Source of the DNA: Bacteroidales bacterium
GTDB taxonomy: Bacteria > Bacteroidota > Bacteroidia > Bacteroidales > UBA3824
Length of the DNA stretch: 64,000 nucleotides
Direction of reading: 5' to 3'
Assembly (NCBI GenBank): GCA_017535325.1
Contig: JAFXUC010000048.1
Location: 1-64,000, forward strand
The position numbers were made by a program, and so were the translations under genes. Under the pieces are notes generated by a model. It ran no database searches and had not been told where the DNA came from. It saw only the letters and a program-made list of their open reading frames with translations. Below, in pieces: positions 9,436 to 26,327 of this stretch (its first letter is position 1; each line of letters opens with the position of its first letter).

Positions 9436-11121
9436 TTATTTCTTTTCCAATGCCTCAATCCTTTTAACAAGGTCTTGAATTGTGGATTTTAGTTCGTCGT
9501 TTTCGGCTTTGAGTTCTTTGACAGCCTCTGTCAAAACAGGTACTATGCCGATGTAATTCAACGATTTAAAACCTTCCGAATCCGTTGTTACGAGTTCGGG
9601 GAATATTTTTTCAACTTCCTGCGCTATAAAACCGTATTGAAGTTTTTTGTCTGCTGACGGTTTTTTCGACGAATCCCAGTTGAAGGTTACGCCGCGGAGT
9701 TTTACGACCTTGTCAAGAGCGGACGAAATGCCGTTGACGTTGGTTTTCAAACGTGAGTCGGAAGATTGTGTTAATGTTCCCGACAGATTTGCTGTTCCGT
9801 CAGAATAGACCAAAAATGCGTTGCTGCGGTTACTTTCTTGTGTTCCGTTTCCGACTACAAACAAGGGATAAGGATTACTGCCGTCATTTTTTGCTACATT
9901 ATTGAATTTTCCGCAAACAAACTGACAATCAGCATTTTGTATTTTGATATTGTTGCCGAATCCTGCCGCATTGTTGCTTGAAAGCACGTTGCATTTTGTT
10001 CCGAAGGCAATTGAGCCTTTTGAACCGCTTACAACTGATTTGTCGCCGTTGATACCGAATGCAAAATTGTGGTCGCTGTCTATATCGCCGTAAAATGCGA
10101 GACAGCCTACCGGTACGTTAGGTGTGCTGTTGATAATTTTTTCCACTTTGGAAGTGCTGCCGACAACAATACTTCCGCCTTTCATATACATTTCGTTTTC
10201 TTTGAAAAGTATTCCGTGTCCGTCCGACTGACTGATTTCAAGGAGAAATTTTGAGTCGTCCGTAAAAGGTGTCGTAGAGGTTGATTTTCCGATTTCAACT
10301 CTTTGGGTCGTATAAATGCCTTTTTCCCATATTTTCCACATGTCGCCTTCCGGTGCGTTTATCCACTTTTTGCTCTCGCCGTCGTATTTGAGAATATGAC
10401 CGTCAGCAAGATTTTTACTGATGGTTACGTCGGTTAATTCAGACAATGCTGTTTTTGCTTCAACTGTTTTGTTGACCCATTTGCTGCCGTCAAAACTCAA
10501 AACCTGACCCGCCTCTGCCGAAGAGAGCGCAACATCGGTCAAAAGCGAAAGTTTGTCAGCGGAAGGACCCGTGCTTGTGATTGTTTTTGCCACCCATTTG
10601 CCGCCGTCAAGTGTTAATACCTGTCCGTCAGAGGCTTCCGCAACCTCTACGTCGGTCAAATCCGAAAGCACCATATTGGTAACTTTTTCTGCTGACTGGG
10701 CGTTTTTTGCGGCTAACGCGTAAGGCACTGCCGAAAATCTCGTTTTGCCCAAATCGTTCATGCCGTTAAGAAATTCCGACTTGCCGAAATCCGCTTTTAC
10801 CTGCAAATAATAAAATCCGCCGCTTATGTCAAGCCAGTTGATTTCAGAATAGTTTTCGCCGGCAATCTGTGTTCCCGAACCTATTTCCACGCTGAAAAGT
10901 CCGAGTTCGGAAGTAACGGTATTGTGAAGTTCCTTGTACTTTTCGGTTTCGCCTTGAAAAATCGTAATCTCTACCGTAATGTCCTTTTCTGCTACGGGTT
11001 TGCCTTCGTCGTCGTTGATAACAGCCTGATAATTAAAAGTTTCAGGCAGTTTGTTCTGACTTTTTGCCGTCAGGGACAACGTTAACAAAACTGCAAATAA
11101 TATAATTCTGTATATTTTCAT
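9436..11121 (-). CDS. Secreted fibre-like protein with C-terminal S74 chaperone domain
   Basis: A 561-residue exported protein with signal peptide (ILFAVLLTLSLTAKS, residues 6-20). Residues about 25-150 form the N-terminal domain common to Bacteroidota tail-fibre-like proteins. Three 35-40-residue repeats follow near 150-255, each built as LTDV...GQVL..DGxKW. The middle resembles YadA-like head sequence (SKGSIAFGTKCNVLSSNNAA). The C-terminus is a Peptidase_S74 intramolecular chaperone (SDSRLKTN near 467 and YGFIAQEVEKIFPEL near 505), ending in a coiled coil. S74 domains trimerise phage tail spikes and then cleave themselves off. It is the last gene of the T9SS operon but has no obvious type-A or type-B sorting domain. 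Confidence 0.82.
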   Translation of the reverse strand: MKIYRIILFAVLLTLSLTAKSQNKLPETFNYQAVINDDEGKPVAEKDITVEITIFQGETEKYKELHNTVTSELGLFSVEIGSGTQIAGENYSEINWLDISGGFYYLQVKADFGKSEFLNGMNDLGKTRFSAVPYALAAKNAQSAEKVTNMVLSDLTDVEVAEASDGQVLTLDGGKWVAKTITSTGPSADKLSLLTDVALSSAEAGQVLSFDGSKWVNKTVEAKTALSELTDVTISKNLADGHILKYDGESKKWINAPEGDMWKIWEKGIYTTQRVEIGKSTSTTPFTDDSKFLLEISQSDGHGILFKENEMYMKGGSIVVGSTSKVEKIINSTPNVPVGCLAFYGDIDSDHNFAFGINGDKSVVSGSKGSIAFGTKCNVLSSNNAAGFGNNIKIQNADCQFVCGKFNNVAKNDGSNPYPLFVVGNGTQESNRSNAFLVYSDGTANLSGTLTQSSDSRLKTNVNGISSALDKVVKLRGVTFNWDSSKKPSADKKLQYGFIAQEVEKIFPELVTTDSEGFKSLNYIGIVPVLTEAVKELKAENDELKSTIQDLVKRIEALEKK

Positions 11122-11133
11122 AACAATAGTTTT

Positions 11134-11574
11134 TTATAGTTTGACAACTTTTAAAGTATAAACGTTTTTGCCCGACAATACTCTTATTACATAGTGTCCG
11201 GGGCTGAGATTTGGCACGCTGACATAAAAACCGTCAGTATCCCGGTAAACGTCTTCACTGTTAAAAACTCTTCCTGTCATATCCGCAAACTGTATTACGG
11301 GTGTCTCTGAGAGTTCAAAGGGGAAAGAAATTTTTATTTTTTCCGTAAACGGGTTCGGATAAGCGGAAAGTTTTATGATTTTTTCCTCTTTTTGTTTGCT
11401 TTTGGCTTTTTGGGCGGTAAAATTCCCTGAGTCGGAAATTCTGAACGAAAAGTTTTTCCCGTCGGTTTTTACCGTTCCCGCAACAGGCGAAAGTCCTATC
11501 GGCACAATGTTTTGTGCTTTCAGCGTCCATGCCGGAAGTGTCAGAAAAGCCGTTATGATAAAAAATGTTTTCAT
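11134..11574 (-). CDS. Small T9SS type-A sorting-domain protein
   Basis: A 146-residue exported protein: signal peptide at residues 1-20 (ending LKAQ), a short polar linker, then a type-A T9SS C-terminal sorting domain over about 70-146. The domain begins at LSAYPNPFTEKI and ends with VIRVLSGKNVYTLKVVKL, the usual KxVK finish. Little is left besides the signal and the CTD, so this is close to a bare sorting domain and may be a small surface anchor. It lies 13 nt downstream of the PorP/OmpA gene and 12 nt upstream of the S74 gene, all in one transcription unit. Confidence 0.8.
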   Translation of the reverse strand: MKTFFIITAFLTLPAWTLKAQNIVPIGLSPVAGTVKTDGKNFSFRISDSGNFTAQKAKSKQKEEKIIKLSAYPNPFTEKIKISFPFELSETPVIQFADMTGRVFNSEDVYRDTDGFYVSVPNLSPGHYVIRVLSGKNVYTLKVVKL

Positions 11575-11587
11575 AGTTTTTTATTTT

Positions 11588-13075
11588 TTATTTGTTTTCT
11601 TCGTCTTCATCCTTTTTTTCGCGGCTGATTTTTACGTTGTTGCTTTCAAAATGTTCCGTTCCGTTTTTGCTTTTGTTTCTGCCTGCAATACCTCTTGTGG
11701 AGATTCTGTTTGCGGGAACACCTTTTGAAACCATATACGCTTTAATTTTTTCGGCTCTTTCCAAAGCAAGTTTCTGATTGTACTTTTTGGAATCGCCCTG
11801 TTCTGCCGTTACGATAATCAGGACTTCTCTGTCCATGTATTTGTCGTTGATTACCGGACCTTCCACAGTGTCTTTCATCAGGGATATATATGCGTCGATT
11901 CCGGGATAAGACGACTTGTTGAGGATTGAAGTGCCGGAGGCGAAAGTAACGTTTCTCATTATTTCGGGTGTTTCCCATTTGACGTTGGTGGCTCCCGGTT
12001 CCTCCTCTATGTGTTCGGGTTCGGGGCTCGGACGTTTTTCGTCGTTTTCAAGCACGTCGTTTATTTTTGCCGTTTTTACCTCTTCTTCGAGTTTTTTGAT
12101 TTCTTCTTTGAGTTTTTGGATTTCATTTGATTTTTCTTTTTCCTTTTCCTCAAAGAAGACCGTCGGTTTTTTGTGCGTTTTGCCTTTCTGAATCAAAAAG
12201 CCTATGCTGATTTCGTGAGTGCCGCCGCAGGTTTTTGCGATTTCGGACGTTCCGTAAAGGTATTGGTAGTTGAAGGCGATTCTGTTTGTCGCCGAAAATC
12301 CCATGCCGAGGGCAAGCCATTTTGTTGACTGATAACCGAGAGAAACCCACGCTCTTTCGTTGTATTTTGCGTTGAGGGCGGCTTTCCATTCCAATTCTTT
12401 CATTCCAAGCGGATAACAAACCTCCGCTGCGGGTTCAAATTCCCATTTGTCGCTTTCTATTGCGTAGGAGAGGTTGCTGAAAATTTCTCTGTCGGTGTTT
12501 AAGATTCCGTTTTGAAACTTCAAATCCTGACAAATAAGTCTCGGCACATACACGCTGAAATTCAGTCCGCCTGCCTTAAACATTACGGAAAATCCGGCGT
12601 CAAAACCGCCGCCTGAAAGTCCCGCCTCGTTTGCCAAAACGGGGTCTGTCGCCGAACCGAAAGTTTTCGCCCCTGCGAGATTGTATGCCGAGCGTACTAT
12701 TGCCGGCGTTACCGCGAAACTCAGTCCCGACTCTTCGGAAAACCTTATGTGGTAAGCGTATGTAATTCCCGCGTAAAAATTGCTGAAATTACCTGATTTT
12801 TCGTTGATTATCTGTACGCCGTAGCCCATGCTCTCGCCTAAATCGCCGTTGACGTCGGCGGTTAAGAGTTTTGTTGCGCCGTCAATACCCGTCATAAAAC
12901 TTCTGTACCCCAAAAAAGCCTCGTCGTTTCCGTTGTAACCTGCGTATGCGGGTGCGGCGGAAAACTTGTTCATGTATTCCTGACCTTCGGGTTTTAAGTG
13001 CTGCGCTTTAACGCTCTGACCGGCAAAACTTATTGCCGCTATGGTTAAAAACAATATTTTTTTCATAGTTTTCAT
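11588..13075 (-). CDS. PorP/SprF-like outer-membrane protein fused to an OmpA domain
   Basis: About 495 residues. The ATG at 13075 is chosen because it lies 2 nt after the upstream stop and is followed by a clean signal peptide (ILFLTIAAISFAGQSVKAQ); the frame is open further upstream but only antisense to the previous gene's codons. Residues about 25-300 form a PorP/SprF-type barrel (NKFSAAPAYAGYNG, YAYHIRFSEES). A Glu/Lys-rich coiled coil follows near 305-345, then an OmpA-like peptidoglycan-binding domain (TFASGTSILNKSSY, ALERAEKIKAYMVSKGV, RISTRGIAG). SprF-like proteins are needed for secretion and attachment of type-B CTD substrates through T9SS. The gene directly upstream encodes such a substrate, so the two very likely work as a pair. 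Confidence 0.85.
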   Translation of the reverse strand: MKTMKKILFLTIAAISFAGQSVKAQHLKPEGQEYMNKFSAAPAYAGYNGNDEAFLGYRSFMTGIDGATKLLTADVNGDLGESMGYGVQIINEKSGNFSNFYAGITYAYHIRFSEESGLSFAVTPAIVRSAYNLAGAKTFGSATDPVLANEAGLSGGGFDAGFSVMFKAGGLNFSVYVPRLICQDLKFQNGILNTDREIFSNLSYAIESDKWEFEPAAEVCYPLGMKELEWKAALNAKYNERAWVSLGYQSTKWLALGMGFSATNRIAFNYQYLYGTSEIAKTCGGTHEISIGFLIQKGKTHKKPTVFFEEKEKEKSNEIQKLKEEIKKLEEEVKTAKINDVLENDEKRPSPEPEHIEEEPGATNVKWETPEIMRNVTFASGTSILNKSSYPGIDAYISLMKDTVEGPVINDKYMDREVLIIVTAEQGDSKKYNQKLALERAEKIKAYMVSKGVPANRISTRGIAGRNKSKNGTEHFESNNVKISREKKDEDEENK

Positions 13076-13077
13076 TT

Positions 13078-13932
13078 TTATTGTCTGATTATATCCACAA
13101 AGCCTGTAACGCCTCTGCGCCCTTTGCTTTTGATTACAAAATAATAAGTGCCGGCAAAAAGGTCGTTGCCGCTCTCGTCCAAGCCTTTGAAACCGTCCGT
13201 GTTGCTGTAATTCCTGTTTTCGTAAACCGCTTTGCCGTGTTTGTTGAAAATCATTACTTCGCACGGCTCTTCATAGCCGTCAAGGTCTTCGATGTAGAGA
13301 ACGTCGTTTATGCCGTCGTTGTTCGGCGTGATTATGTTGTTGGCAACAATAATCGAACTGAAATCCGCAAGTTGGTTTTTCTGATACGAAACCGTTTTGG
13401 AGTCTTCCGTGGTGCAGCCGTCTTTTGAAGTTACGACTACTTTGTATTCTCCCGACTCCAAATAATTGAGTTCCGGCTCTTTGTCTTGAAGTTCTTTTTC
13501 AGTGCCTTTTCTGTCAACGGCATACCAGGTGTAAGAGGCTGCGTTTGTGCTGCTTGCAACGAGTTTCGCGCTTTTTGTGTCGTCGTAGAGCGACAAATCC
13601 GGCGTAACGCCTACCGTAATTGTTTCAAGCGTTGTTTCTTCGTCGGGTTCTTTGCCCTCGTAAAAAGTCTGATAGGTAATAGTTTTGGAACCTTCTTCTA
13701 AATATATGTGTTTCAGTTCCTTGTCCATATCGGTTATGTAACTGTACTTTCCGTCGCCGAATTTTACGGTTATATATTTAAAAGGTGTGTGAACTTTGTC
13801 AACTTTTACCGTAACAACGCTTTTGTCGGTGCAGGCGGTTTTGGTATCGACTGTAAGTTCCGGTTTTTGGGCTTTCAGCGGTACTGCCGCCGTTAATGCC
13901 GATATTGTTAAAATCGTATATAAAAGTTTCAT
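13078..13932 (-). CDS. T9SS type-B (gliding-motility C-terminal) surface protein
   Basis: A 284-residue secreted protein with signal peptide (LLYTILTISALTAAVPLKA). Residues about 25-190 look like two PKD/Ig-type beta domains (KYITVKFGDGKYSY, ASYTWYAVDRKG). The C-terminal 90 residues are a CHU_C / type-B T9SS sorting domain: NNIITPNNDGINDVLYI near 198-214, MIFNKHGKAVYENRNY, and LFAGTYYFVIK near 262. Type-B substrates need a PorP/SprF-like partner, which is encoded 2 nt downstream. It is the first gene of a four-gene leftward operon ending with the S74 protein. Confidence 0.86.
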   Translation of the reverse strand: MKLLYTILTISALTAAVPLKAQKPELTVDTKTACTDKSVVTVKVDKVHTPFKYITVKFGDGKYSYITDMDKELKHIYLEEGSKTITYQTFYEGKEPDEETTLETITVGVTPDLSLYDDTKSAKLVASSTNAASYTWYAVDRKGTEKELQDKEPELNYLESGEYKVVVTSKDGCTTEDSKTVSYQKNQLADFSSIIVANNIITPNNDGINDVLYIEDLDGYEEPCEVMIFNKHGKAVYENRNYSNTDGFKGLDESGNDLFAGTYYFVIKSKGRRGVTGFVDIIRQ

Positions 13933-13999: not shown

Positions 14000-14878
14000 T
14001 TAGAAGGTTCTTTTACGGAAATAAACGGACTCTTTTTTCTCGAAATTTGCGCCTACTGTCCCTATGATTCCTTCATGACGGCCTATTACAAGGCAGCCGT
14101 TTTTGGTAAGGTTCTCGTAAAAAAAGGTTATGACTTTGTTTTGCAGGTCGTGGTTAAAATATATTAAAACGTTCCGGCAAAGAATCATCTCGAATTTCTT
14201 CTCAAAAATATTTTTGCATGATACCAAATCGTGTTTGATAAAAAGCGGTTTTTCCACCAAAAAATCAGCCATTTGTACGTTGTCGTTAAACTTGTTGACC
14301 TTGATGTATTTTGTCATGTCAACGCTTGGATAGTTTTTTTTCATGTTTTCCGACTCGTTGAGTGCCTTGTCGAAATTGTCAAGATAATTGATAAGTTCAT
14401 GATATTTGTATCTTCCCGACATTGCGGTGTTAAGGACGTTTGCATTGATGTCGGAGGCGTATATCGAGGTTTTTTCCAAGAGGTTCATTTCGTTCAGGAG
14501 AATCATCAGCGAATACACCTCCAAACCCGTACTGCACCCTGCGTGCCAGATGTTGATGTTTTCACAGCCGGCAAACCTCTGCTCTATGGCCTGGCGTATA
14601 AAAAACCAAGTCTCAGGGTCGCGGAAAATCTCCGTTGTGTTTACGGTGATGTTTCTTACGACCTTTTCGAGAAAGTTGTAATCTTTTTTGACGTTTCTTA
14701 TCAGAGTTTCAATATCCGTTTCAAAGTCCGAAAGTATTTTTTCTATTCTCCTATAAAAACTGTTATAGGAATAGTCGGAGAAATTGTATGTCGAAACTTC
14801 CCTTATGGCATCTTGAAGCCTGAAAATGTCTTTTTCAGATATATCGCCTGTGTAATCCATTGTCATATCAAAGTGCAA
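14000..14878 (-). CDS. cheR: CheR-type protein-glutamate methyltransferase
   Basis: A 292-residue SAM-dependent methyltransferase of the CheR family, which methylates glutamates of chemoreceptors. The N-terminal helical CheR_N domain covers about residues 15-75. The SAM site is IWHAGCSTGLEVYSL near 109-123 (usual form WSAGCSTGEEPYS), and CRNVLIYFN near 232-240 is the second signature. VNTTEIFRDPETW near 78-90 is diagnostic. No receptor, CheB, CheA or CheW gene is present, so the substrate may be the GAF/PAS sensors encoded divergently. A TACTTTTG box at 14883-14876 overlaps the first ATG, so the true start may be the ATG at 14866 or 14860, making a nearly leaderless mRNA. Confidence 0.88.
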   Translation of the reverse strand: MHFDMTMDYTGDISEKDIFRLQDAIREVSTYNFSDYSYNSFYRRIEKILSDFETDIETLIRNVKKDYNFLEKVVRNITVNTTEIFRDPETWFFIRQAIEQRFAGCENINIWHAGCSTGLEVYSLMILLNEMNLLEKTSIYASDINANVLNTAMSGRYKYHELINYLDNFDKALNESENMKKNYPSVDMTKYIKVNKFNDNVQMADFLVEKPLFIKHDLVSCKNIFEKKFEMILCRNVLIYFNHDLQNKVITFFYENLTKNGCLVIGRHEGIIGTVGANFEKKESVYFRKRTF

Positions 14879-15186: not shown

Positions 15187-17763
15187 ATGGAATTTATTCG
15201 TCAAATATTTGATAGATTGAACCTTAGGAGCAAGATAGCCCTAATGTTTGCCGTATTGTCGGTATACGTTATATTCTTCGGGGTTTATGTATTTTTTCTT
15301 GTCAGCGGCGTCAAAAACGACATTGACTCGTTTACCACCCGTCAGGCTAACGGTATTTACCCCCTTTACGCGATGACCGAGGATATTTATTCTTTGGTCG
15401 TTCAGAATCACGCCATTGTAGAAAACGAGACTGACGTAGTGGCTATTCAACGCCATCACAACAAGTTCAACCAGTTTTACGAGATAAGACTCAAAGAGTA
15501 CGAGAATACCTTGCAGACCTCCGAAGAACTCAAAATGCTTGACAGGTTCAAGAGTGAGTTTGTCATTTATCAGAACATCAACAAGGACATTATCCGCCTG
15601 ATGATTAACGGCAACGTTGAGACGGCGCGTCAGTTGTTGTCAATCAAGGAGATAAGCGCGTTCAACCAAATGCGCAAAACCCTTGACCAGATGTATCAGA
15701 TGCACAGAAAAAATCTTTTGGCGGGCGAACAGTCTATCAGAGACGAGGTTTCTAAGACGCTTATTATTTCTGGCGTATTGATTTTGCCGCTTTTGTTGTT
15801 AGCGGCCTTTACTGCTTTATATATTATAAAGGTGTTGAAAAAATCTTTTGTGGATTTTGACGGTTTTACAAAACAACTCAGCAAAGGTATCATTCCGGAT
15901 ACAAAACTCACGGAAGACGGTTCTGATTTTGGTCAAATCAACAAAAATGTCAACGATACGGCAGAATTGTTTAAGAAACTTACGGAGTTTTCTAACGAGA
16001 TTGCAAAAGGCGTTTACGATGCAAAAGCCTCCGTTGAAGCACCTGAGGGTTCGATGGCAAAAAGTCTTATTGACCTGCGCGACCGTTTGGTGGAGACCGA
16101 AAAGGAGCAGAAACAACGTCGTTTGGAAGATGAGCAGCGCAACTGGACAACTCAGGGTCTTGCAAAGTTCGGCGACATTATGCGCCATTCCAACGACAAT
16201 ATTACGAAACTTTCCGACGATGTTATCAAAAACCTCGTACATTATATCAATGCGAGTCAGGGCGGTCTGTTTGTGCTTGACGACAGCGACCCGCAGCACA
16301 TCTTCTTGGAGATGGCATCGGCTTTTGCATACGACAGAAAGAAATTTTTGACAAGAAAAGTGCCTTTGGGAGACGGTTTGATCGGTGTTTGCGCTTTGGA
16401 AAAGAACACTATTTTTATTACCGACGTTCCGGAGGATTATATGGAAATTGAGTCAGGCTTGGGAGATTCAAAACCGAAATGCCTCTTGATTGTGCCTTTG
16501 AAATCGGAGGACAAAATCATGGGTGTTATCGAGTTGGCCTCGTTCAACATCCTGAAACCTTACGAGATACAGTTTGTGGAGCAACTCGGCGATTCTATCG
16601 CTTCTACCTTGTCGTCGCAGAGAATCAACATCAGGACGGCGGAACTTCTTTCAGAATCTCAGAAGAAGTCAGACGAGTTGGCTGTCCGCGAGGTTGAACT
16701 TCATAAGACGATGGACGAAATGACCGTTGCCCGCGACGAGGCTCAAAGACGTGAGGCGGAGATGGCAGGTATTCTTTCTGCCGTTGACGAGACACTTTTG
16801 AAAGCCGAACTTGACAATCAGGGCGTTTTTGAGTCGGCTAACCAGAAGTTCCTTTCCGCGCTCGGTTACCGCAAGGACGAACTTATCGGCAGAAACATCA
16901 AGACTATTCTCGACGACAAATATCTTGACAATTTTGACATCGTATGGCAAAATATTTGTGCGGGTCAGTCTTATCAGAACACTTACAACCAAAAGAACAA
17001 ATACGGCGAAGTGATTTGGCTTTTGGCGCAGTTTACGCCGATTTTCGACCAGAACGGCGAGGTTGTAAAAGTGCTTTATATTGCAAATAATATTACCGAA
17101 CAGCAGGTTACGGAGGAGAAAAACAAGAGACTTTTGGCGGAGAGTACCGAGAGGGCGGAAATGCTCATGGCAACTCAGGAAAGCATGGCAAAGAACCGTA
17201 TCGAAATGGTTTCCGTGATGACCGCAATCGACGAAACGCTTATGAAAGCCGAGTATTCTGTGGAAGGTAACTTGTTGGCTGCCAATCAGAAACACATCGA
17301 GACCATGGGTTATGACTTTGAGACGACAAAGGGCAAAAACATTTTAACGTTTATTCCCGATGAAGAAATTGTCGAATTTAAAGCATTATGGCAAAATGTT
17401 TGTGAAGGTAATTTACACCAAATGACAGTAAAACGTAAGAGTAAACTTACGGGACACGATATTTGGCTTATAAACCAATATACGCCGGTTAAGGACACAC
17501 AAGGAAAAGTTATCAAGGTCTTGTACACCGCTATCGACATCACGGCTCATAAAGAGATTGAAGAGCAGGCGATGAAACAAGTGGAAAATCTGAGAAAACA
17601 GAACGAAGAACTTTCTTCGCAACTCTCAATGACAAAAGCGAATGAAAGTTCGTTGAAAACCAAACTCGGCGAAATAGAGAAAGTTAACAGCCTTGCTGAA
17701 AGCGGACGGCAATCCTCAGTTGATGAAAAATATCACAATTGGCTGGCAAGTTTTGACAAGTAA
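15187..17763 (+). CDS. Membrane sensor with GAF and two PAS domains, no output domain
   Basis: An 858-residue inner-membrane protein. A first membrane helix lies near residues 17-39, a four-helix-bundle periplasmic region near 40-195 (as in MCP ligand domains), and a second helix near 196-216. The cytoplasmic part has a HAMP-like stretch, a GAF domain near 325-480, and two PAS/PAC domains near 535-640 and 680-785 that look like a tandem duplication (both contain VDETLxKAE/IDETLMKAE and end with VLYIANNIT/VLYTAIDIT). The protein ends in a coiled coil. There is no kinase, cyclase, phosphatase or MCP signalling tip, so it must signal through a partner. The GAF is clearly paralogous to that of the PP2C protein 71 nt downstream, the likely partner. 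It could also be methylated by the divergent CheR. Confidence 0.85.
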   Translation: MEFIRQIFDRLNLRSKIALMFAVLSVYVIFFGVYVFFLVSGVKNDIDSFTTRQANGIYPLYAMTEDIYSLVVQNHAIVENETDVVAIQRHHNKFNQFYEIRLKEYENTLQTSEELKMLDRFKSEFVIYQNINKDIIRLMINGNVETARQLLSIKEISAFNQMRKTLDQMYQMHRKNLLAGEQSIRDEVSKTLIISGVLILPLLLLAAFTALYIIKVLKKSFVDFDGFTKQLSKGIIPDTKLTEDGSDFGQINKNVNDTAELFKKLTEFSNEIAKGVYDAKASVEAPEGSMAKSLIDLRDRLVETEKEQKQRRLEDEQRNWTTQGLAKFGDIMRHSNDNITKLSDDVIKNLVHYINASQGGLFVLDDSDPQHIFLEMASAFAYDRKKFLTRKVPLGDGLIGVCALEKNTIFITDVPEDYMEIESGLGDSKPKCLLIVPLKSEDKIMGVIELASFNILKPYEIQFVEQLGDSIASTLSSQRINIRTAELLSESQKKSDELAVREVELHKTMDEMTVARDEAQRREAEMAGILSAVDETLLKAELDNQGVFESANQKFLSALGYRKDELIGRNIKTILDDKYLDNFDIVWQNICAGQSYQNTYNQKNKYGEVIWLLAQFTPIFDQNGEVVKVLYIANNITEQQVTEEKNKRLLAESTERAEMLMATQESMAKNRIEMVSVMTAIDETLMKAEYSVEGNLLAANQKHIETMGYDFETTKGKNILTFIPDEEIVEFKALWQNVCEGNLHQMTVKRKSKLTGHDIWLINQYTPVKDTQGKVIKVLYTAIDITAHKEIEEQAMKQVENLRKQNEELSSQLSMTKANESSLKTKLGEIEKVNSLAESGRQSSVDEKYHNWLASFDK

Positions 17764-17834
17764 AAAAAACAGAGGAAAAAAATTTTTTTATTGTAAAAAA
17801 ATCCGTACTTTTACAACCGTATTTTTAAAAGAAA

Positions 17835-20477
17835 ATGGCGAAGCAGGAAACTGACATAACAACAGCGGCAAGCAAGAGCAATTCAAGCCGGAATATGGTG
17901 CTCAAATACACCTTAATCGGTTTTTGTATCGGCTTGTTGTTCCCTCTTGTTTCTATTTTGACTGAGTTTCAAATCAAGCATATACAGTTTGATTACACAA
18001 AGATTCCGTATCTGCATGACAGAACACCTGTGCTTTTTGTCATAGACTTGGCTCCGATTGTCATTGCGCTTATTTTCAATTATTTTGCCGTTAAAAACCG
18101 CCGTCAGAATGAGGAGTTGGAAACGATGCTTGCTGAAAAGAATGAGATTTTCCGCAAAAACTCCTTGATTGCAAAGCGTATCGGAGAAGGTGATTTGTTT
18201 TTTGACACTTCTGAAATTGACGAGGACGACCTTCTCGGACGTTCGCTCCTTATAATGAAAAACAACCTTGTGGCAACCTCGCAGCGTGAAAACGAGCAAA
18301 ACTGGATTGCAAAAGGTAAGGAAATCATCGGTGACATCTTGCGTCAGAGAAACAATATCAGTGAATTGGCTTACGAGACTATTATTAATTTGATAGAGTA
18401 TATAGGAGCCGTTCAAGGAGCGTTTTATCTTTACGATGACGATAACAAAGTCCTCTCTAATATTGCAACTTACGCATACAACAGGAAAAAATACATAACT
18501 CAGGAATTTAAAATTGGTATCGGCTTGGTAGGTCAGGCGGCTTTTGAGCGCGACATCATTTACCGTAAAGAGATTCCTGATGATTATGTTACTATTTCTT
18601 CGGGTATTTTGGGGGACAAAAAGCCTAAAACACTGCTTCTTTCGCCGCTTATCAACGACGAAAAACTTCAAGGCGTTATTGAGTTTGCATCTTTGGAAGA
18701 TGATATGCCTGACAAAACGTTACGCCTTATAAAAGAGGTGAGCGAAATTATCGCGCAGACCATCTTCAACCTTCGTGTCAACGCCACTACGGAAAAACTC
18801 CTCCAAGAGGCGCAGACTATGACACGTCAGTTGCAGAAAAACGAGGACGAACTCCGCAAAAACGCCGAGGATATGAAAAAGGCGCAGTTGGAACTTCAAG
18901 AGGTCAACAAAAACTTGCAGGCGCAAATCCGCGAGGTGGAACGCGGTCAGAAACGTCAGTACGCCCTTTTGGAAAACGCCTCCGAGGTCATCTCAATTTA
19001 TGACGAAAACGCAATCGTAACCTACGAAAGCCCGTCTTCAAAGAGCATTTTGGGTTACGACCCCGATTATATTATCGGCAAGACTGCTTACGAAAAGTTC
19101 GACGACAACTCCCGGAGCAAGTTTCAGGAAGTTTTCAAGCAACTTTTGCAGCAGCCTGACGCGCCTGTTACGTTTGAGTATCAGTTCAGGAAGTCTAACG
19201 AGGAGGTGCTTTGGCTTGAAGCGAGCGGACGAAACCTTTTGAGCAACGCCGCTATTCAGGGCATTATCTTTAATACGCGCGACATCACCGTGCGCAAGAT
19301 TGCTGAAAAAGCGCAGCGTATGAGTGGTGAAATGCAGGCATTGTCAGAAAACTCCTTGGATGCAATCCTCCGTCTCTCGCCGGAAGGCAAGTTCTTCTAT
19401 GTCAACCCCGTGGCGGAAAAAGTTACCGGTGTCAAGAAAGAAGACCTTTTGCAAAAGCAAATTGACGATGTGGAACTCAACGAGAAAATCTCAGGTTTCT
19501 TCAAGGATGCTTTGTCGCAGGTTGTACAAAACCAGAGAATGTTCGATACGGAAACCACTTTCCCCGCTGTGGACGGCGGAGAGGATATTATCATTCAGTT
19601 CAACGCAATTCCGGAGTTCAACAAGGAGAAGGAGTTGGAGACCATTTTGTTTGTGGCTCACGACATCACAGAGCGCAAGCGTATCGAAATGGAAATCGAA
19701 GAAAAGAACAAGAGTATCACCGAGTCCATCAACTATGCTCAAAGGATTCAGTCTGCGATTATTCCGAGCCTCGATGCAATCGGAGCAAGACTGCCGAAGT
19801 TCTTTATGTTTTACCGTCCGAGGGACGTTGTCAGCGGCGACTTCCCGTGGTTTTTCGACAAGGACGAAAACATTTACATCGCGGCTGTTGACTGTACGGG
19901 ACACGGAGTGCCGGGCGCACTGCTCTCGTTTATCGGATATTTCAACCTTAACATAATAGCCGACCATGCCGACAAACTCAATGCGGGTCAGGTACTTGAC
20001 CTCTTGCATACTGGCGTTAAGAAGACTTTGAAACAAGACAGCGACGAGACGGAGGCAAGAGATGGCATGGATATTGCTTTATGTAAAATTAACTTTGAGA
20101 CCCAAACTTTACATTACGCGGGTGCTCACAGACCTTTGTATTACCTTAACAGCAACAAAGAGTTGATAAAATACAAAGGTACGCCTCAGGCCATCGGCGG
20201 AAAACCGACCAGAAAAGGCAAGGAAAAGGAATTTGAAAACTTTGAAATAAAGTTCAATCCGGGTGAAAAAGTATTCTTCTTCTCCGACGGTCTGCCCGAC
20301 CAGGTAGGCGGCGATGCCGGAAGAAAATACCGTCCGGGCAGAATAGAAGAACTCATAACAGGAAATCCTGATTTTACGATGGCTCAGTACAAGGAGTTGT
20401 TTGAGAACGATTTTCTGCAATGGAAGGGTTCTTACAAGCAGGTGGACGACATTCTGCTGATTGGTATAGAATTTTAA
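17835..20477 (+). CDS. SiaA-like PP2C/SpoIIE phosphatase with GAF and PAS sensors
   Basis: An 880-residue membrane protein. Two helices near residues 25-45 and 70-90 enclose a short outer loop. A GAF domain (about 165-320), coiled coil (320-375), PAS domains (about 380-495 and 500-620) and a C-terminal SpoIIE-type PP2C Ser/Thr phosphatase (about 635-880) follow. Metal-binding acids are visible in RDVVSGDF and AAVDCTGHGVPGALLS, and in FFFSDGLPDQ and KQVDDILL near the end. This is the role of SiaA in the SiaABC partner switch: it dephosphorylates SiaC, whose kinase SiaB is the next gene. The N-terminal region differs from Pseudomonas SiaA, which has a periplasmic Cache-like sensor. A weak promoter box (TACTTTTA) lies at 17816-17823. 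Confidence 0.87.
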   Translation: MAKQETDITTAASKSNSSRNMVLKYTLIGFCIGLLFPLVSILTEFQIKHIQFDYTKIPYLHDRTPVLFVIDLAPIVIALIFNYFAVKNRRQNEELETMLAEKNEIFRKNSLIAKRIGEGDLFFDTSEIDEDDLLGRSLLIMKNNLVATSQRENEQNWIAKGKEIIGDILRQRNNISELAYETIINLIEYIGAVQGAFYLYDDDNKVLSNIATYAYNRKKYITQEFKIGIGLVGQAAFERDIIYRKEIPDDYVTISSGILGDKKPKTLLLSPLINDEKLQGVIEFASLEDDMPDKTLRLIKEVSEIIAQTIFNLRVNATTEKLLQEAQTMTRQLQKNEDELRKNAEDMKKAQLELQEVNKNLQAQIREVERGQKRQYALLENASEVISIYDENAIVTYESPSSKSILGYDPDYIIGKTAYEKFDDNSRSKFQEVFKQLLQQPDAPVTFEYQFRKSNEEVLWLEASGRNLLSNAAIQGIIFNTRDITVRKIAEKAQRMSGEMQALSENSLDAILRLSPEGKFFYVNPVAEKVTGVKKEDLLQKQIDDVELNEKISGFFKDALSQVVQNQRMFDTETTFPAVDGGEDIIIQFNAIPEFNKEKELETILFVAHDITERKRIEMEIEEKNKSITESINYAQRIQSAIIPSLDAIGARLPKFFMFYRPRDVVSGDFPWFFDKDENIYIAAVDCTGHGVPGALLSFIGYFNLNIIADHADKLNAGQVLDLLHTGVKKTLKQDSDETEARDGMDIALCKINFETQTLHYAGAHRPLYYLNSNKELIKYKGTPQAIGGKPTRKGKEKEFENFEIKFNPGEKVFFFSDGLPDQVGGDAGRKYRPGRIEELITGNPDFTMAQYKELFENDFLQWKGSYKQVDDILLIGIEF

Positions 20478-20507
20478 AAAAAACGTTTCATCATAATGTA
20501 AACATAT

Positions 20508-21086
20508 ATGGCAAGTATGAAAGAACATAAAGAATCGCTTGATTTTGTTTATGACTTCTACGTTAAGATGAAGAGGAACAAAATAAATTTGGCATACGAG
20601 GGCGAAATAACGCATCAGATTACAAAGGCGTTTACTTCGCTTACCGAGACCAATATGGTCAGGGAGGAGGATGCGAGTTCGGTGCAAAAGAAGGTCTTTC
20701 ACGTTATGGTGGAGTGCCTTCAAAACATCAGCAAGCACTCCGAAGGCTCGCCAAATACCTCTGCAAAAGACGGACGGGGCATATTTATGGTCTCAAAGGG
20801 CGATACGGAGTACAATGTTACTACCGGAAACATTATTAAAAACGAAAACGTTGACAAACTGCGCGGGATTTTGGAGAACATCAACAAACTCGACAAAGAC
20901 GGGCTGAACAAACTTTACAAACAGCAGATGCGCGAAGGTCATATTTCTGACCGTGGCGGTGCCGGTTTGGGGTTTATTGATATTGCCCGCAAGACTGGAG
21001 AAAAACTGTTGTTCAGTTTCTTGAAAATCGACAGCACAAACTCATTTTTCGTATTAACATCAACAATTTCACGAATTAAAGAATAA
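20508..21086 (+). CDS. siaB: SiaB-family protein kinase (DUF6272)
   Basis: A 192-residue cytoplasmic GHKL-type protein kinase. The N-box-like helix is VECLQNISKHSEG near residues 68-80 and the glycine-rich box is DRGGAGLGFIDIARKTG near 148-164. In Pseudomonas SiaB phosphorylates SiaC on a threonine and so opposes the phosphatase SiaA. The gene lies 30 nt after the PP2C gene and 13 nt before siaC, the conserved order A-B-C. A second in-frame ATG 9 nt downstream (20517) is an alternative start. Confidence 0.85.
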   Translation: MASMKEHKESLDFVYDFYVKMKRNKINLAYEGEITHQITKAFTSLTETNMVREEDASSVQKKVFHVMVECLQNISKHSEGSPNTSAKDGRGIFMVSKGDTEYNVTTGNIIKNENVDKLRGILENINKLDKDGLNKLYKQQMREGHISDRGGAGLGFIDIARKTGEKLLFSFLKIDSTNSFFVLTSTISRIKE

Positions 21087-21099
21087 AAAATTTATTATT

Positions 21100-21483
21100 A
21101 TGCAAGTTATAAAAATACAAGGTTCGGACGATACACCTACAGTTACTCTTGACAAGGAGAACAACATTTTTGAAATTTCGGGAAGGTCTCTCCCCGAAGA
21201 CGTGGTGGCTTTTTACACTCCTATTTTGGACTGGCTCACCGAGTATGCTTCCGACCCGTTGGATAAGACAGTATTCAATTTCAAATTAGAGTATTTCAAT
21301 ACGGCTTCGTCAAAACTTCTTCTTGACGTTCTTTTGAAACTTGAAGATATAAAGAACGACGGACACGACGTTTTGGTAAAATGGCATTATCCCGATGACG
21401 ACGAGGATATGTTGGATGCAGGTACGGAATATGCCGATATTGTAGACGTTGAATTTGAGCAGGTACCTTATACTGTTGACTAA
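21100..21483 (+). CDS. siaC: SiaC-family regulatory phosphoprotein (DUF1987)
   Basis: A 127-residue protein, the usual length for SiaC. It is the switch protein that SiaB phosphorylates and SiaA dephosphorylates; in Pseudomonas unphosphorylated SiaC binds and activates the diguanylate cyclase SiaD. The conserved segment LEYFNTASSKLLLD includes Thr68, the same residue number as the phosphorylated threonine of P. aeruginosa SiaC. The fold signature ILDWLTEYASDP is also present. There is no siaD here; the next gene, 56 nt downstream, is a TerB/ABC transporter, which makes that transporter the candidate target. Confidence 0.87.
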   Translation: MQVIKIQGSDDTPTVTLDKENNIFEISGRSLPEDVVAFYTPILDWLTEYASDPLDKTVFNFKLEYFNTASSKLLLDVLLKLEDIKNDGHDVLVKWHYPDDDEDMLDAGTEYADIVDVEFEQVPYTVD

Positions 21484-21539
21484 CGTAAAAAGAATAATTG
21501 TCTTAAAATCAGAATTTTAACTTTTAGAATTCCGGCGTT

Positions 21540-24500
21540 ATGAGTGAAGAGATATTAAAGGCGTTGATTCAGATGTTTGCCCTTATTGCCAAGCAGGACG
21601 GCGGCATAGAGGACAAGGAATTGCAGTATGTGGAGAGTTTTCTTGTATCGCAGTTGGGTGCCGAGGCCTCTGAACCTGTAATGCTTGATTTTAAGAAGCA
21701 AGTCGGTCTTATTGAGGACGAAAAAACAAGACGCAAACGCGAGAGAGAACGTCTTAAAGCCTTGGAAGCGGGCATAGACCCAGAAAAAAAGGCAAAAGAG
21801 GAAAAAGACGCGCAGCTTACCTCCGTGAGGGAGTCGGTGAAAATCCTCGGTTTGTGTAAGAAAATCAACAAGACCATTAATACAAAACAAAAAGTCGTCG
21901 TATTTGTGCGTTTGTACGAGTTGGTGAACACGAGTAAAAAGTTTACCGACCAGCGTATGGCTATTATCAATACGGCGGGCGAGGTCTTCAATTTTAAGAG
22001 CGGTGTTATCAACGAGATTAAAAATTTCGTTATCAACAACGATATTAAAACTTTGGACTATCCCGCTATTTTGGCAATTTCCGACAACAAATACGATTTT
22101 GAACAGGCTAAACAAATTCATTGCGAGGGTCTTGACTCGGATATTTTTATCCTGAGGCAAGAAATGGAGACCGAAAGCGGCGAGTTGTATTTTATGCGCT
22201 ATACCGGAAGTCATGACGTTTATCTTAACGGCTCACCGATTTTCAGCGACCGTATTTACGCTTTCGCTCCCGGCGCAACCCTCAAAATGACAAAGGGCCG
22301 TCCTATTTATTACAGCGACGTTGTTGCGACTTTTCAGGCGGACAAGACTTTCGCCAATTTGTCGTTTAACGTTACAGATTTGGAGTTTAGGTTTCCCAAC
22401 AATGCCATCGGTCTCAGAAACATCAATTTTTCGGAGTGTCAGGGCAGGCTTGTCGGAATCATGGGTGCCTCCGGTGCGGGCAAAACTACGTTGCTTAACG
22501 TTTTGTCGGGCATTACAACACCCTCGAAAGGTTCGGTCAAAATCAACGGCATCGACCTTCATAGAGAAAAGGAAAAACTTGAAGGCGTTATCGGTCTTAT
22601 TCCTCAGGACGACCTTCTGATTGAGGAACTTACCGTCTTCGAAAACTTGTATTTCAGCGCGAAATTCTGTTTTAAGGATATGCCTGAAAACGAAATACGC
22701 GCAAAAGTGGATTCGGTCTTGAAATCCTTAGGGTTGTACGACAGAAAGGATTTGAAGGTCGGAAATTCGCTCAACAAACTTATTTCGGGCGGTCAGCGTA
22801 AACGTCTTAACATTGCTCTCGAACTTATCAGGGAGCCTTCCGTGTTGTTTGTTGACGAGCCTACTTCGGGTTTGTCGTCAAGGGACTCGGAAAACGTAAT
22901 GGACCTTTTGAGCGAGTTAACCTTAAAAGGCAAACTTATTTTTGTGGTCATTCACCAGCCGTCTTCTCAAATATACAAGATGTTTGACAAGATGATAATC
23001 CTCGACACGGGCGGTTATATGGTTTATTACGGGCATCCTACGGACGCTATTTCGTATTTCAAAACCATTGACGGTCAGGTCAAGAGCGAAGAGGGCGAAT
23101 GTCCGCACTGCGGTAACGCTACGCCGGAGGTGATTTTCGACATCATCGAGGCGAGAAAAGTCAACGAGTTCGGTTCCTGGTCAAACGAAAGGAAAATTGA
23201 GCCGCCTAAATGGGAGGAACTTTTCCACAAAAAAATTACGCCGGAAATTATCCCCGACGTTACGACCGAGCCGCCTAAGAACTTAAAAGTTCCGAATTGG
23301 TTGAACCAGTTTTTGACATATTTGAGGAGGGATTTCAAGTCGAAAATCTCAAACCTTCAATATATATTCCTGAACCTGATTGAGGCTCCTTTATTGGGCT
23401 TTATTTTGGCGTTCTTAATCCGTTATACCGCTGCAAACAGAGACGAATATGTCTTTTACGAAAACGAGAACATCGTGCCGTATATTTTTATGAGTATTAT
23501 TGTCGCTCTGTTTTTGGGACTTACGGTTTCGGCGGAGGAAATTTTCCGCGACAGGAAGATTTTGAAGCGGGAAGAATTTTTGAATCTTTCGCGGTCGAGT
23601 TATTTGGTGGCGAAAGTGGTGATTTTGGTGATGATTTCGGCAATTCAGTCGTCGCTTTACATTTTGGTCGGTAATTCGATACTGAATTTCAGCGAACCGT
23701 CGATGTATTTCTCTTTCTGGCTTGTGCTGTTCCCGATGTGGGTTTTGGCGAACATGATGGGCTTGAACATTTCGTCGGCGTTCAACTCGGCGGTAACGAT
23801 TTACATTTTGATACCGCTGTTGATGATTCCGCAGATGGCTTTGGGAGGTTCTATGTTCGCTTTTGACAAGTTGAACCAAATCATCGGAAGCGTCGGAAAA
23901 GTGCCGATTATCGCCGAATGTATGGCTTCAAGATGGGCATACGAGGCTTTGATGGTAAAACAGTTCAAGGACAACAAATTCGAGAGCAACTTCTACGAGT
24001 TTGAAAAACTGAAAAATAATTCTTCGTTCAAGCAGATTTACTACGTTGCCGAACTTAAAAAGGCAAACACAAACGCTTACGAATGTGTTGAAACATTGGT
24101 TGACGAGGATTATGAATATTCTGACGATATTGAGAAAGAAAAAATCGTAGACAGTCTGAACAACGTTATGGAATACAACCTCGCGCTTTTGAGAGAGGAA
24201 ATTGCAGAGGAAGTGCGGGTTTTCCCGGATATGGAGCCGGATTTTGAACTCTCTGATTTGGTTACTGACAAGTTTTCGGAGAGTTTATACAACGAGGTTG
24301 ATGATTATCTCTCCAAACTTGACTCATATTACGGCAAGCAGTTTAACATTGCCGATTCGAGGATTGAGTCGAGAAAGGAAGCCTTTGACAAGAAATCCAA
24401 AGGTTTGTACATAAGATACAGGGAACGTTATCATAACGAAAAATTGCAGGATATTGTAACAAATGTTTATGAAAAAAATAAAATAATTCGCTACAAAAAC

Positions 24501-24845
24501 CGTTTAATACAACAAGCGGATCCGGTATTTTTGGATGCTGACAATTCCGGTTTCTTCGGTTTCAGGGCGCATTTTTACGCTCCCAGAAAATGGTTTTGCG
24601 GCAGATATTATGATACGTTCAGTTTTAACATAGTGATTTTGTGGCTGTTCAGTCTTGTATGCTATGTTACGCTGTATTTTGACGTGCTGAAAAAACTTGT
24701 AGACTGGGGCGGCAATATTTCGTTGAAAGGATACAAGGAAAAACTCTTGAAAATGCTTCCTAAAAAAGGAGACAAACAGCCGGAGGAAGAAGTAAAAGAA
24801 GAGCCGGCGGAGAAAAAAACGGTTGCGGAAGAAAAAACGGAGTAA
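21540..24845 (+). CDS. TerB-FHA-like-ABC-G half transporter fusion
   Basis: A 1101-residue inner-membrane protein. Residues about 1-160 resemble a TerB tellurite-resistance domain (IKxDGGIEDKELQYVESFL type) with a charged helical insert. About 175-275 is a beta-rich FHA-like region (DIFILRQEM, HDVYLNGSPIFSDRIYAF). The ABC ATPase spans about 280-510: Walker A GASGAGKTT near 308-316, signature LISGGQRKRLNIALEL near 415-430, Walker B VLFVDEPTSGL. An ABC-2/ABCG permease follows from about 610 to 800, a long charged soluble insert from about 800 to 1020, one more helix near 1030-1050, and a Glu/Lys-rich tail. ABCG-type order is ATPase first. The substrate is unknown. An FHA-like region and co-transcription with SiaBC suggest control by phosphorylation. 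Confidence 0.82.
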   Translation: MSEEILKALIQMFALIAKQDGGIEDKELQYVESFLVSQLGAEASEPVMLDFKKQVGLIEDEKTRRKRERERLKALEAGIDPEKKAKEEKDAQLTSVRESVKILGLCKKINKTINTKQKVVVFVRLYELVNTSKKFTDQRMAIINTAGEVFNFKSGVINEIKNFVINNDIKTLDYPAILAISDNKYDFEQAKQIHCEGLDSDIFILRQEMETESGELYFMRYTGSHDVYLNGSPIFSDRIYAFAPGATLKMTKGRPIYYSDVVATFQADKTFANLSFNVTDLEFRFPNNAIGLRNINFSECQGRLVGIMGASGAGKTTLLNVLSGITTPSKGSVKINGIDLHREKEKLEGVIGLIPQDDLLIEELTVFENLYFSAKFCFKDMPENEIRAKVDSVLKSLGLYDRKDLKVGNSLNKLISGGQRKRLNIALELIREPSVLFVDEPTSGLSSRDSENVMDLLSELTLKGKLIFVVIHQPSSQIYKMFDKMIILDTGGYMVYYGHPTDAISYFKTIDGQVKSEEGECPHCGNATPEVIFDIIEARKVNEFGSWSNERKIEPPKWEELFHKKITPEIIPDVTTEPPKNLKVPNWLNQFLTYLRRDFKSKISNLQYIFLNLIEAPLLGFILAFLIRYTAANRDEYVFYENENIVPYIFMSIIVALFLGLTVSAEEIFRDRKILKREEFLNLSRSSYLVAKVVILVMISAIQSSLYILVGNSILNFSEPSMYFSFWLVLFPMWVLANMMGLNISSAFNSAVTIYILIPLLMIPQMALGGSMFAFDKLNQIIGSVGKVPIIAECMASRWAYEALMVKQFKDNKFESNFYEFEKLKNNSSFKQIYYVAELKKANTNAYECVETLVDEDYEYSDDIEKEKIVDSLNNVMEYNLALLREEIAEEVRVFPDMEPDFELSDLVTDKFSESLYNEVDDYLSKLDSYYGKQFNIADSRIESRKEAFDKKSKGLYIRYRERYHNEKLQDIVTNVYEKNKIIRYKNRLIQQADPVFLDADNSGFFGFRAHFYAPRKWFCGRYYDTFSFNIVILWLFSLVCYVTLYFDVLKKLVDWGGNISLKGYKEKLLKMLPKKGDKQPEEEVKEEPAEKKTVAEEKTE

Positions 24846-24926: not shown

Positions 24927-25835
24927 ATGCATAAGAAATGTTTATATTTGGCATTAGTTTGCCTTACTTTTGTGCAGTTCAGTTGCGGCGGTTGTGACGG
25001 CTCAGGAAATGACGTAGACTTTATACCGCCGGAGGACGAGGTTATAACAACCTCTGACGTGAATTATAACGCTGAGGCAATGAACGAGGTTATTGCAAGT
25101 TTTTCGTCGCCGGTTGAAATGGCGGCACTGCTTAAAGCCTCTGATGTGCCTTTTTCTCAGAAGTACTTGATGGATCCCGATAAAGTCAACGGTTATACTT
25201 CAAGTTTTAAGCGTGCTTTGGGTTTGGGAATTCTGAGTGCCGACTTGGGTTATTTGAATGTTTATTCAAAAACCTCGATGATTTTAGACTATTTAGTGGG
25301 AATCCGGAAACTTACTGAGTCTTTGACTTTGGGACAGTTTTTTGATTTTCAGGCCTTGAAGAGGCTGGCTACCTCCGATGACAATATTGACTCTCTTTTA
25401 ATTATGTCAGTCCAGAGTTATCATAACATGGACGAACATTTGAGAAACAATCAAAGGAGCAATCTCAGTGCGCTGATGGTAACGGGAGTTTGGATTGAGT
25501 CTATGTATCTTGTAACGCAGGTTGCAAAAGAGCGTCCGAGCGAGGAGTTTAAAAACACTATCGGTGAACAAAAAGGCATTTTGAACAATCTTCTGCCGAT
25601 TTTGAAGTTGTTTAAGGAAAACGACAAGCATTTTGCAGATTTGGTAGGAAATTTGGAAGAAGTCAAGGAGGTACTTGACGTGGTAAAAATCACCGTTCAG
25701 GTAAAGGATGACATTCCGGCTGAATCCGAAGGCGCGATTGTTCAAAACGAGGAAAGTATCGTTACCGTTTCAGACGAGGAACTTTCGGAAATTATTACTG
25801 TAACAGAAAAGATTCGTAACAAAATTATAAATTAA
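24927..25835 (+). CDS. Lipoprotein of unknown function
   Basis: A 302-residue predicted lipoprotein. The signal peptide has a lipobox VQFSC with the acylated Cys near residue 19, followed by GGCDGSGNDVDF. The rest is predicted mainly helical, with no motif I recognise. There is a negatively charged C-terminal part (PAESEGAIVQNEESIVTVSDEE). The absence of a clear inner-membrane retention signal suggests the outer membrane. It has its own consensus promoter and precedes the small exported protein by 12 nt, so the two are probably made together. A link to the upstream SiaABC/ABC cluster is possible by position only. Confidence 0.7.
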   Translation: MHKKCLYLALVCLTFVQFSCGGCDGSGNDVDFIPPEDEVITTSDVNYNAEAMNEVIASFSSPVEMAALLKASDVPFSQKYLMDPDKVNGYTSSFKRALGLGILSADLGYLNVYSKTSMILDYLVGIRKLTESLTLGQFFDFQALKRLATSDDNIDSLLIMSVQSYHNMDEHLRNNQRSNLSALMVTGVWIESMYLVTQVAKERPSEEFKNTIGEQKGILNNLLPILKLFKENDKHFADLVGNLEEVKEVLDVVKITVQVKDDIPAESEGAIVQNEESIVTVSDEELSEIITVTEKIRNKIIN

Positions 25836-25847
25836 TTGCTTTATAAT

Positions 25848-26327
25848 ATGAAAAGACTGTTTATTATATTAGTTTTTGCTATTGTGGCTCTCGCAATGAC
25901 AACCTCAACCGCAGATGCGCAATGTAAACAACAAGTTGTATATCAGTGTGCGACTCAAACTGAAAAAGCCATATATCTTCGTGATTTCAATACAAAATTG
26001 AAACGTGACGCAGCAGACGAAGAAACGGGTATGAAATGGACTGTTGTCCTCAACAAAGGAACGCAGTACAGATTTTCGCTTTGTGCGCCTGACGGTTTTC
26101 AGGATCAGGTTGTCTTGACACTTTATGACAGCGAGCACCCCGAAAATTCAAAACCGTGGGGAAGCACTTACGACAAAACAACCAAGTCTGACAGAAAATC
26201 TTTTGACTTTATCTGCAACAAAACGGCGATGTATTATATTTCAATCCGTTTTAAGGCAGGTGAGGGCTCAAAGAAGGCGTGTGCAGTAGGTATTTTGTCT
26301 TTCGTAGGAAAGAGTACCAACAAATAA
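25848..26327 (+). CDS. Small exported protein of unknown function
   Basis: A 159-residue protein starting at ATG 25848; an in-frame upstream start at 25836 gives four extra residues but abuts the previous stop and is less likely. A clear signal peptide (LFIILVFAIVALAMTTSTADAQ) leads into a mature domain of about 135 residues predicted as beta sandwich, with paired cysteines (CKQQ, YQC, LCAPD, ICNKT). Segments such as FSLCAPDGFQDQVVLTLYD and MYYISIRFKAGEGSKKAC recall C-terminal pre-peptidase-like (PPC) beta domains, but this is tentative. It ends the transcription unit; a strong terminator follows. Confidence 0.68.
   Translation: MKRLFIILVFAIVALAMTTSTADAQCKQQVVYQCATQTEKAIYLRDFNTKLKRDAADEETGMKWTVVLNKGTQYRFSLCAPDGFQDQVVLTLYDSEHPENSKPWGSTYDKTTKSDRKSFDFICNKTAMYYISIRFKAGEGSKKACAVGILSFVGKSTNK

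Follow-up and report, generated by a model that had tools for sequence, protein, structure and literature searches.

A SiaABC-type partner switch with a probable ABC-G exporter output in Bacteroidales

Introduction

What does a SiaABC-type partner switch control in a genome where no diguanylate cyclase stands at its end? The question is raised by a 64,000-nucleotide (nt) stretch of DNA from a Bacteroidales bacterium, here called the window (contig 94 of a 3.72 Mb Bacteroidota assembly, 98.4 percent complete), in which genes for a PP2C phosphatase, a SiaB-family kinase and the small protein SiaC are followed by a gene for an ABC-G exporter with a TerB-like and an FHA-like front end. In Pseudomonas, SiaB adds a phosphate to Thr68 of SiaC and SiaA takes it off (PMC7647112). 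N67, T68 and S69 of SiaC, together with its second and third helices, contact the helical stalk of the diguanylate cyclase SiaD, and phosphate on Thr68 blocks this binding (PMC8457831). Using a combination of family searches, structure prediction and comparison across genomes, we argue that the operon is probably a SiaABC-type partner switch with the dedicated ABC-G exporter as its output.

Results

The sequence features that mark a SiaABC partner switch are present at the locus, namely a SiaC with Thr68 and Asn67, an adjoining SiaB-family kinase and a SiaA-related PP2C. The PP2C domain aligns with the SiaA PP2C chain 6k4e_A (E 2e-29) and retains the acidic motifs, the kinase scores 174.8 bits against NCBIfam SiaB_fam_kinase (cut-off 85), and Thr68 of SiaC matches Pseudomonas SiaC chain 6kko in a gap-free alignment; all three proteins score below the NCBIfam equivalog cut-offs (149.7 against 700 bits for SiaA, 82.7 against 225 for SiaB and 77.7 against 150 for SiaC). 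In the transporter the nucleotide-binding domain (NBD) precedes the ABC-2 membrane domain within one chain, as in the ABC-G type, and the solved relatives that align across both domains are of the ABCG type. Open reading frame positions and family matches bear out the order given in the initial annotation, which had the PP2C phosphatase, SiaB and SiaC with Thr68 followed 56 nt later by a TerB/FHA-like/ABC-G fusion. A gene does begin at 15187, where that annotation opened its stretch, although it encodes a separate sensor and the phosphatase begins at 17835; likewise, its list of switch and transporter genes stands but overlooked two co-conserved downstream genes, for a helical lipoprotein (LIPO) and a small secreted protein (P163; Table 1).

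Seven plus-strand genes, from the sensor (15187) to the small secreted protein (26327), are separated by gaps of 12 to 81 nt. No terminator-like site is listed between SiaC and the transporter (21483-21540), with 16 sites predicted overall against 13.8 in shuffles. A sigma-70-like site lies in this gap at 21503-21530, one of 40 listed against 22.2 in shuffles, so the transporter may be transcribed separately.

The association is conserved across the class. A scan of genome_contigs with the membrane part of the transporter (alignment A4, which leaves TerB outside the query) confirmed 561 stretches, of which we analysed the best 80. Their gene content was read by six-frame searches with iterated hidden Markov models whose seeds came from the window. 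These models agree with the public families in samples that include the window's own proteins: Pfam SiaC recognizes 24 of 24 SiaCs, and NCBIfam NF038262 recognizes 23 of 23 SiaBs. Among these 80 the closest transporter relative, at 87 percent, belongs to an uncultured Bacteroidales from red deer; cultured carriers include Chryseosolibacter and Fulvivirga. Every locus carries the TerB/FHA region, accompanied by SiaC in 61, SiaB in 60, PP2C in 56, LIPO in 68, P163 in 61 and CheR in 43; since some loci end near the transporter, part of the absences reflects missing flanking sequence. In 59 loci a same-strand SiaC precedes the transporter by no more than 1,500 nt, and the full single-strand order PP2C-SiaB-SiaC-ABC-LIPO-P163 is kept in 49. 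A second, convergent layout with gaps below 1,000 nt occurs in at least 19 genomes, so that transporter and SiaC stay paired in two arrangements.

Presence of the two families is likewise coupled. When transporter N-termini are counted at E up to 1e-5, weak rows included, 200 of 395 class genomes carry the N-terminus and 213 carry SiaC, with both in 191, the transporter only in 9, SiaC only in 22 and neither in 173 (odds ratio 167, Fisher 8e-74, a statistic that ignores shared ancestry). A search of 296 phylum genomes with an N-terminal profile found the transporter in 5, all among the 18 that contain SiaC; rates as different as these indicate that the phylum and class samples differ in make-up. 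The same-strand upstream SiaCs and this co-occurrence rule out a chance neighbourhood, and the objection named in the initial annotation, that the transporter might rarely accompany siaBC, is not borne out from the transporter side, as far as genomes can tell.

In a quick tree of 90 transporter sequences, with support given by the Shimodaira-Hasegawa-like approximate likelihood ratio test only, the window protein falls in a clade of 70 (support 100), of which 64 are linked to SiaC, 4 are not and 2 are cut off. The four unlinked rows are L116, L187, one of L145, and L156, which has only 860 nt of upstream sequence. A further group of 12 on long branches contains 4 linked, 6 unlinked and 2 cut-off members. 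Where the transporter locus shows no SiaC, the genome encodes one elsewhere in 18 of 19 cases, in up to 21 copies, the exception without any SiaC being the 2.1 Mb genome of L185.

Among the SiaCs beside the transporter, Thr68 is present in 67 of 68 (Ser in the remaining one), Asn67 and Tyr65 in all 68, and residue 69 is Ala in 64; residue 69 is Ser in all 3 GGDEF-linked SiaCs and in 19 of 21 other SiaCs outside the window's own genome, and is mixed in the 13 other SiaCs of that genome (Ser 8, Ala 4, Thr 1). Transporter-linked SiaCs also cluster in the SiaC tree, with 7 changes against 30.7 in shuffles. This clustering bears on an alternative, which we judge rather unlikely, in which the genes form one regulon whose exporter is merely co-expressed, with SiaC acting on a transcription factor, the operon sensor or a remotely encoded protein. 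SiaC is indeed multi-copy, with at least 16 copies in the window's own genome, and its neighbours include unrelated genes, among them SprA, Omp85/TIR and PanE, as that explanation would have it; the tree, the pairing kept in two layouts and the tight coupling of the two families all speak against it.

A search confined to GGDEF, with EAL and PilZ outside it, gave no match in the window's own genome, although it did find matches in 8 of 14 control genomes; nor did GGDEF turn up in the other four phylum genomes that carry the transporter. GGDEF is also absent from 34 of the 36 genomes behind 36 chosen loci (35 linked to SiaC, plus L116), those of L129 and L144 having it. Conversely, GGDEF is found in 13 of the 18 phylum genomes with SiaC, and all 13 lack the transporter N-terminus. 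Three genomes (G133, G125 and G272, the last with broken frames) carry a GGDEF domain directly after SiaC, in the Pseudomonas order, so that the post-SiaC slot is taken by GGDEF in some lineages and by the exporter in others. That the switch has been rewired to control export, as the initial annotation proposed, is a guess, since either GGDEF or the transporter may be the ancestral output. The possibility that SiaC still serves cyclic di-GMP (c-di-GMP) through a GGDEF enzyme encoded elsewhere, which the initial annotation had named as a challenge to its proposal, draws on the two locus genomes with GGDEF; the absences contradict it for the window's own genome, unless such an enzyme lies in sequence that the assembly lacks or is of a non-GGDEF type, and we consider it extremely improbable.

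The front end of the transporter is recognized mainly by its fold. The window protein falls below the Pfam TerB cut-off (E 0.062), its L119 orthologue matches at 1.6e-8, and 5 of 7 rows of alignment A2 match when E is allowed to reach 10, the strongest of them at 5.6e-7; Pfam FHA gives no match in the window transporter. An AlphaFold2 model of residues 1-275, built from 34 sequences (predicted local distance difference test, pLDDT, 89.1; predicted template modelling score 0.83), has ten helices followed by a beta sandwich. In comparisons with Foldseek and VIA-align the helical part resembles the TerB-type structures 2h5n (Z 9.3 over 116 residues at 3.6 A) and 2ou3 (Z 8.0), and the sandwich resembles FHA domains, best 5yyx (Z 7.5) and including Rv1747 FHA-2 (6cah, Z 6.2). 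No Foldseek match reaches E < 0.001, so both assignments denote fold resemblance and not close kinship. FHA domains usually bind phosphothreonine through the motifs S[RK]xH and SxN[GN][TS]; across 89 FHA-like regions the former occurs in 1 and the latter in 0. The window's own genome has three full-length copies of the transporter, about 41 percent identical to the window copy, and a fourth N-terminus on contig 104. Separately, longer ABC-G proteins (open frames of 1214-1323 amino acids; L086, L087, L092 and L093 in G275 and G283) occur in SiaC-bearing genomes of another class, three of them with N-termini that look TerB-like by eye.

LIPO and P163 match no known family in family searches, LIPO also when taken from L119. 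The model of LIPO (pLDDT 85.7) has no clear fold match: the best hits, up to Z 6.9, are unrelated helical proteins, and we made no assignment. A sequence search of the PDB gave weak matches, best E 0.0083.

Upstream, many relatives have CheR at the head of the operon, and L119 has CheR, then CheB (PF01339), then a membrane GAF protein. In the window CheR is divergent from the switch genes, and beside it, at 9436-13932, the minus strand encodes a series of secreted and OmpA-like proteins, of which one ends in a C-terminal tail that, by eye, we take to be of the gliding-motility type.

Table 1. Genes and domains of the switch-exporter locus, in window coordinates (aa, amino acids; TM, transmembrane)
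Feature	Position	Strand	Basis and remarks
CheR-family methyltransferase	14000..14878	-	Pfam CheR 5.3e-34
Membrane sensor, 4HB_MCP + GAF + two PAS, without output domain	15187..17763	+	Family search
SiaA-like sensor phosphatase, GAF + two PAS + PP2C/SpoIIE, two TM helices (by eye)	17835..20477	+	SpoIIE/PP2C 5.8e-15
SiaB-family kinase (DUF6272)	20508..21086	+	DUF6272 8.4e-43; NCBIfam SiaB_fam_kinase
SiaC, putative phosphorylatable adaptor	21100..21483	+	Pfam SiaC 5.1e-40; Thr68 codon 21301-21303
TerB/FHA-like/ABC-G exporter, 1101 aa	21540..24845	+	ABC_tran 2.8e-33; ABC2_membrane 2.8e-17
TerB-like helical domain, aa 3-172 of transporter	21546..22055	+	Model and fold match; candidate SiaC docking surface
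FHA-fold beta domain, aa 177-250 of transporter	22068..22289	+	Model and fold match; canonical phosphothreonine-binding motifs lacking
NBD, then ABC-2 membrane domain	22365..24842	+	Family search; ABCG-type solved relatives
Helical lipoprotein LIPO, no family assigned	24927..25835	+	Co-conserved downstream gene
Small secreted protein P163, conserved Cys, no family assigned	25848..26327	+	Co-conserved; alignment A7

Discussion

Our work here suggests how a partner switch known from c-di-GMP signalling could be coupled to a membrane exporter. We propose that signals reach the GAF/PAS phosphatase, and probably also the upstream sensor, and that they would set the balance between phosphorylation of SiaC on Thr68 by SiaB and its reversal by the PP2C domain. 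Unphosphorylated SiaC would then bind the cytosolic TerB/FHA-like front end and switch export, most likely on, and the phosphate on Thr68 would break this contact. LIPO and P163 may be periplasmic partners of the exporter. Gene content, predicted folds, conserved order, co-occurrence and the lack of GGDEF come from the present analysis. The kinase and phosphatase chemistry, and binding by the unphosphorylated form, we infer from Pseudomonas; the docking site, the sign of control and the roles of LIPO and P163 are inferences of our own.

It is plausible that SiaC docks on the TerB/FHA front end. Transporter positions that are conserved in the 64 linked members and lost in the unlinked paralogues fall in TerB at 25 of 69 and elsewhere at 29 of 368 (Fisher 8e-9), a comparison with a paralogue clade of only 8 in which a fast-changing domain could mimic the TerB signal. 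When agreement with the group of 12 is also required, the marker positions number 13 of 38 in TerB against 18 of 351 elsewhere. The TerB markers comprise T94, S95, V96, D98, S99 and V100, present in most linked orthologues, and F135, Q138, R139, M140 and T145.

Several observations weigh against the proposal of an exporter gated by SiaC. TerB compared with FHA alone is not significant in the position analysis (p 0.21 and 0.08), and partial distance correlation with SiaC over 58 loci runs the opposite way (FHA 0.33, TerB 0.14), so that the candidate site may be either TerB or FHA. The SiaD-contact positions of SiaC undergo no significant group-specific shift (Fisher 0.19, Mann-Whitney 0.10), and we set them aside as proof of a new partner. 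In the paralogue clade of 8 transporters (G049, G186 and relatives; support 100), which shares the TerB/FHA/ABC domains and in most members an adjoining LIPO-type lipoprotein, SiaC is beside none, the lipoprotein lies upstream and the TerB signature positions are not kept; the same front end thus seems to serve another use there. In L116 the transporter still adjoins SiaB, with no SiaC at the locus. Finally, most SiaC copies in these genomes lie away from the transporter: the proposed link of SiaABC to the transporter holds across the class, but from the SiaC side the transporter is just one neighbour among several, adjoining 3 of the 16 copies examined in the window's own genome and 4 of 26 loci from other phylum genomes.

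The sign of control could also be inverted, on the model of the mycobacterial exporter Rv1747, which is laid out as FHA-NBD-transmembrane domain and in which we know of no TerB domain. The FHA I domain of Rv1747 binds a phosphothreonine of Rv2623, and in Mycobacterium tuberculosis this exporter is controlled by threonine phosphorylation (PMC5549992), with the Ser/Thr kinase PknF there in the place of PP2C, SiaB and SiaC here. On that logic phosphorylated SiaC would bind the FHA-like domain and shut the exporter, as the shared layout with an FHA fold before the NBD, the fold match to Rv1747 FHA-2 and the closer tracking of FHA by SiaC distances would allow. The FHA-like regions almost uniformly lack the usual binding motifs, however, and in Pseudomonas the Thr68 phosphate prevents target binding (PMC8457831), so we regard inverse control as improbable. 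The Rv1747 precedent of an FHA-bearing exporter subject to threonine phosphorylation leads us to read the operon as one of signal-gated export. Compared with SiaABCD of Pseudomonas aeruginosa, the locus shares the PP2C, the SiaB kinase, Thr68 of SiaC and an output gene directly after SiaC (PMC7647112, PMC8457831); it differs in its sensor domains and in its output, there the cyclase SiaD and here an ABC-G exporter, with GGDEF found neither after SiaC nor elsewhere in the genome.

The transporter may be one of several outputs in a wider network of SiaB and SiaC proteins, as most SiaCs in the window's own genome lie away from it. SiaB domains number 17 in that genome, some of them fused in tandem, and SiaC genes at least 16, the family search having scored 14 of 24 candidates. 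Tandem SiaB fusions of about 380 amino acids (L042, L045, L049, L052 and L053 in this genome) recur in L079 (G045) and L173; L040 (8386-10837, contig 69) has a consecutive cluster of three SiaC genes and two SiaB genes, and L072 (10162-12039) has PP2C and SiaB fused in a single protein, followed by SiaC. A SiaC paralogue precedes by about 160 nt a 2488-amino-acid protein with SprA_N, a type IX secretion domain (L041, 9784-17802), and a SiaC with a C-terminal extension is flanked by a TIR-domain protein on one side and an Omp85 protein on the other (L044, 8424-13337). More tentatively, SiaC in Bacteroidota without c-di-GMP might be the adaptor of a purely protein-based network, with many SiaB/SiaC pairs, a TerB-type docking module and, as class-wide core output, the gating of one conserved three-component exporter.

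We found no published work linking a SiaC/SiaB switch to this ABC transporter in a literature search that took in few subscription journals and no bioRxiv preprints. Sigma factors are established end points of partner switches. Diguanylate cyclases are known end points as well (PMC8457831, PMC7647112). An exporter output, if true, would be a new one and would account for the role of SiaC in genomes free of GGDEF. The transporter N-terminus is present in about half of the class sample. Many Bacteroidota appear to place a Pseudomonas-type c-di-GMP switch beside a membrane exporter, a target that would be new for such switches.

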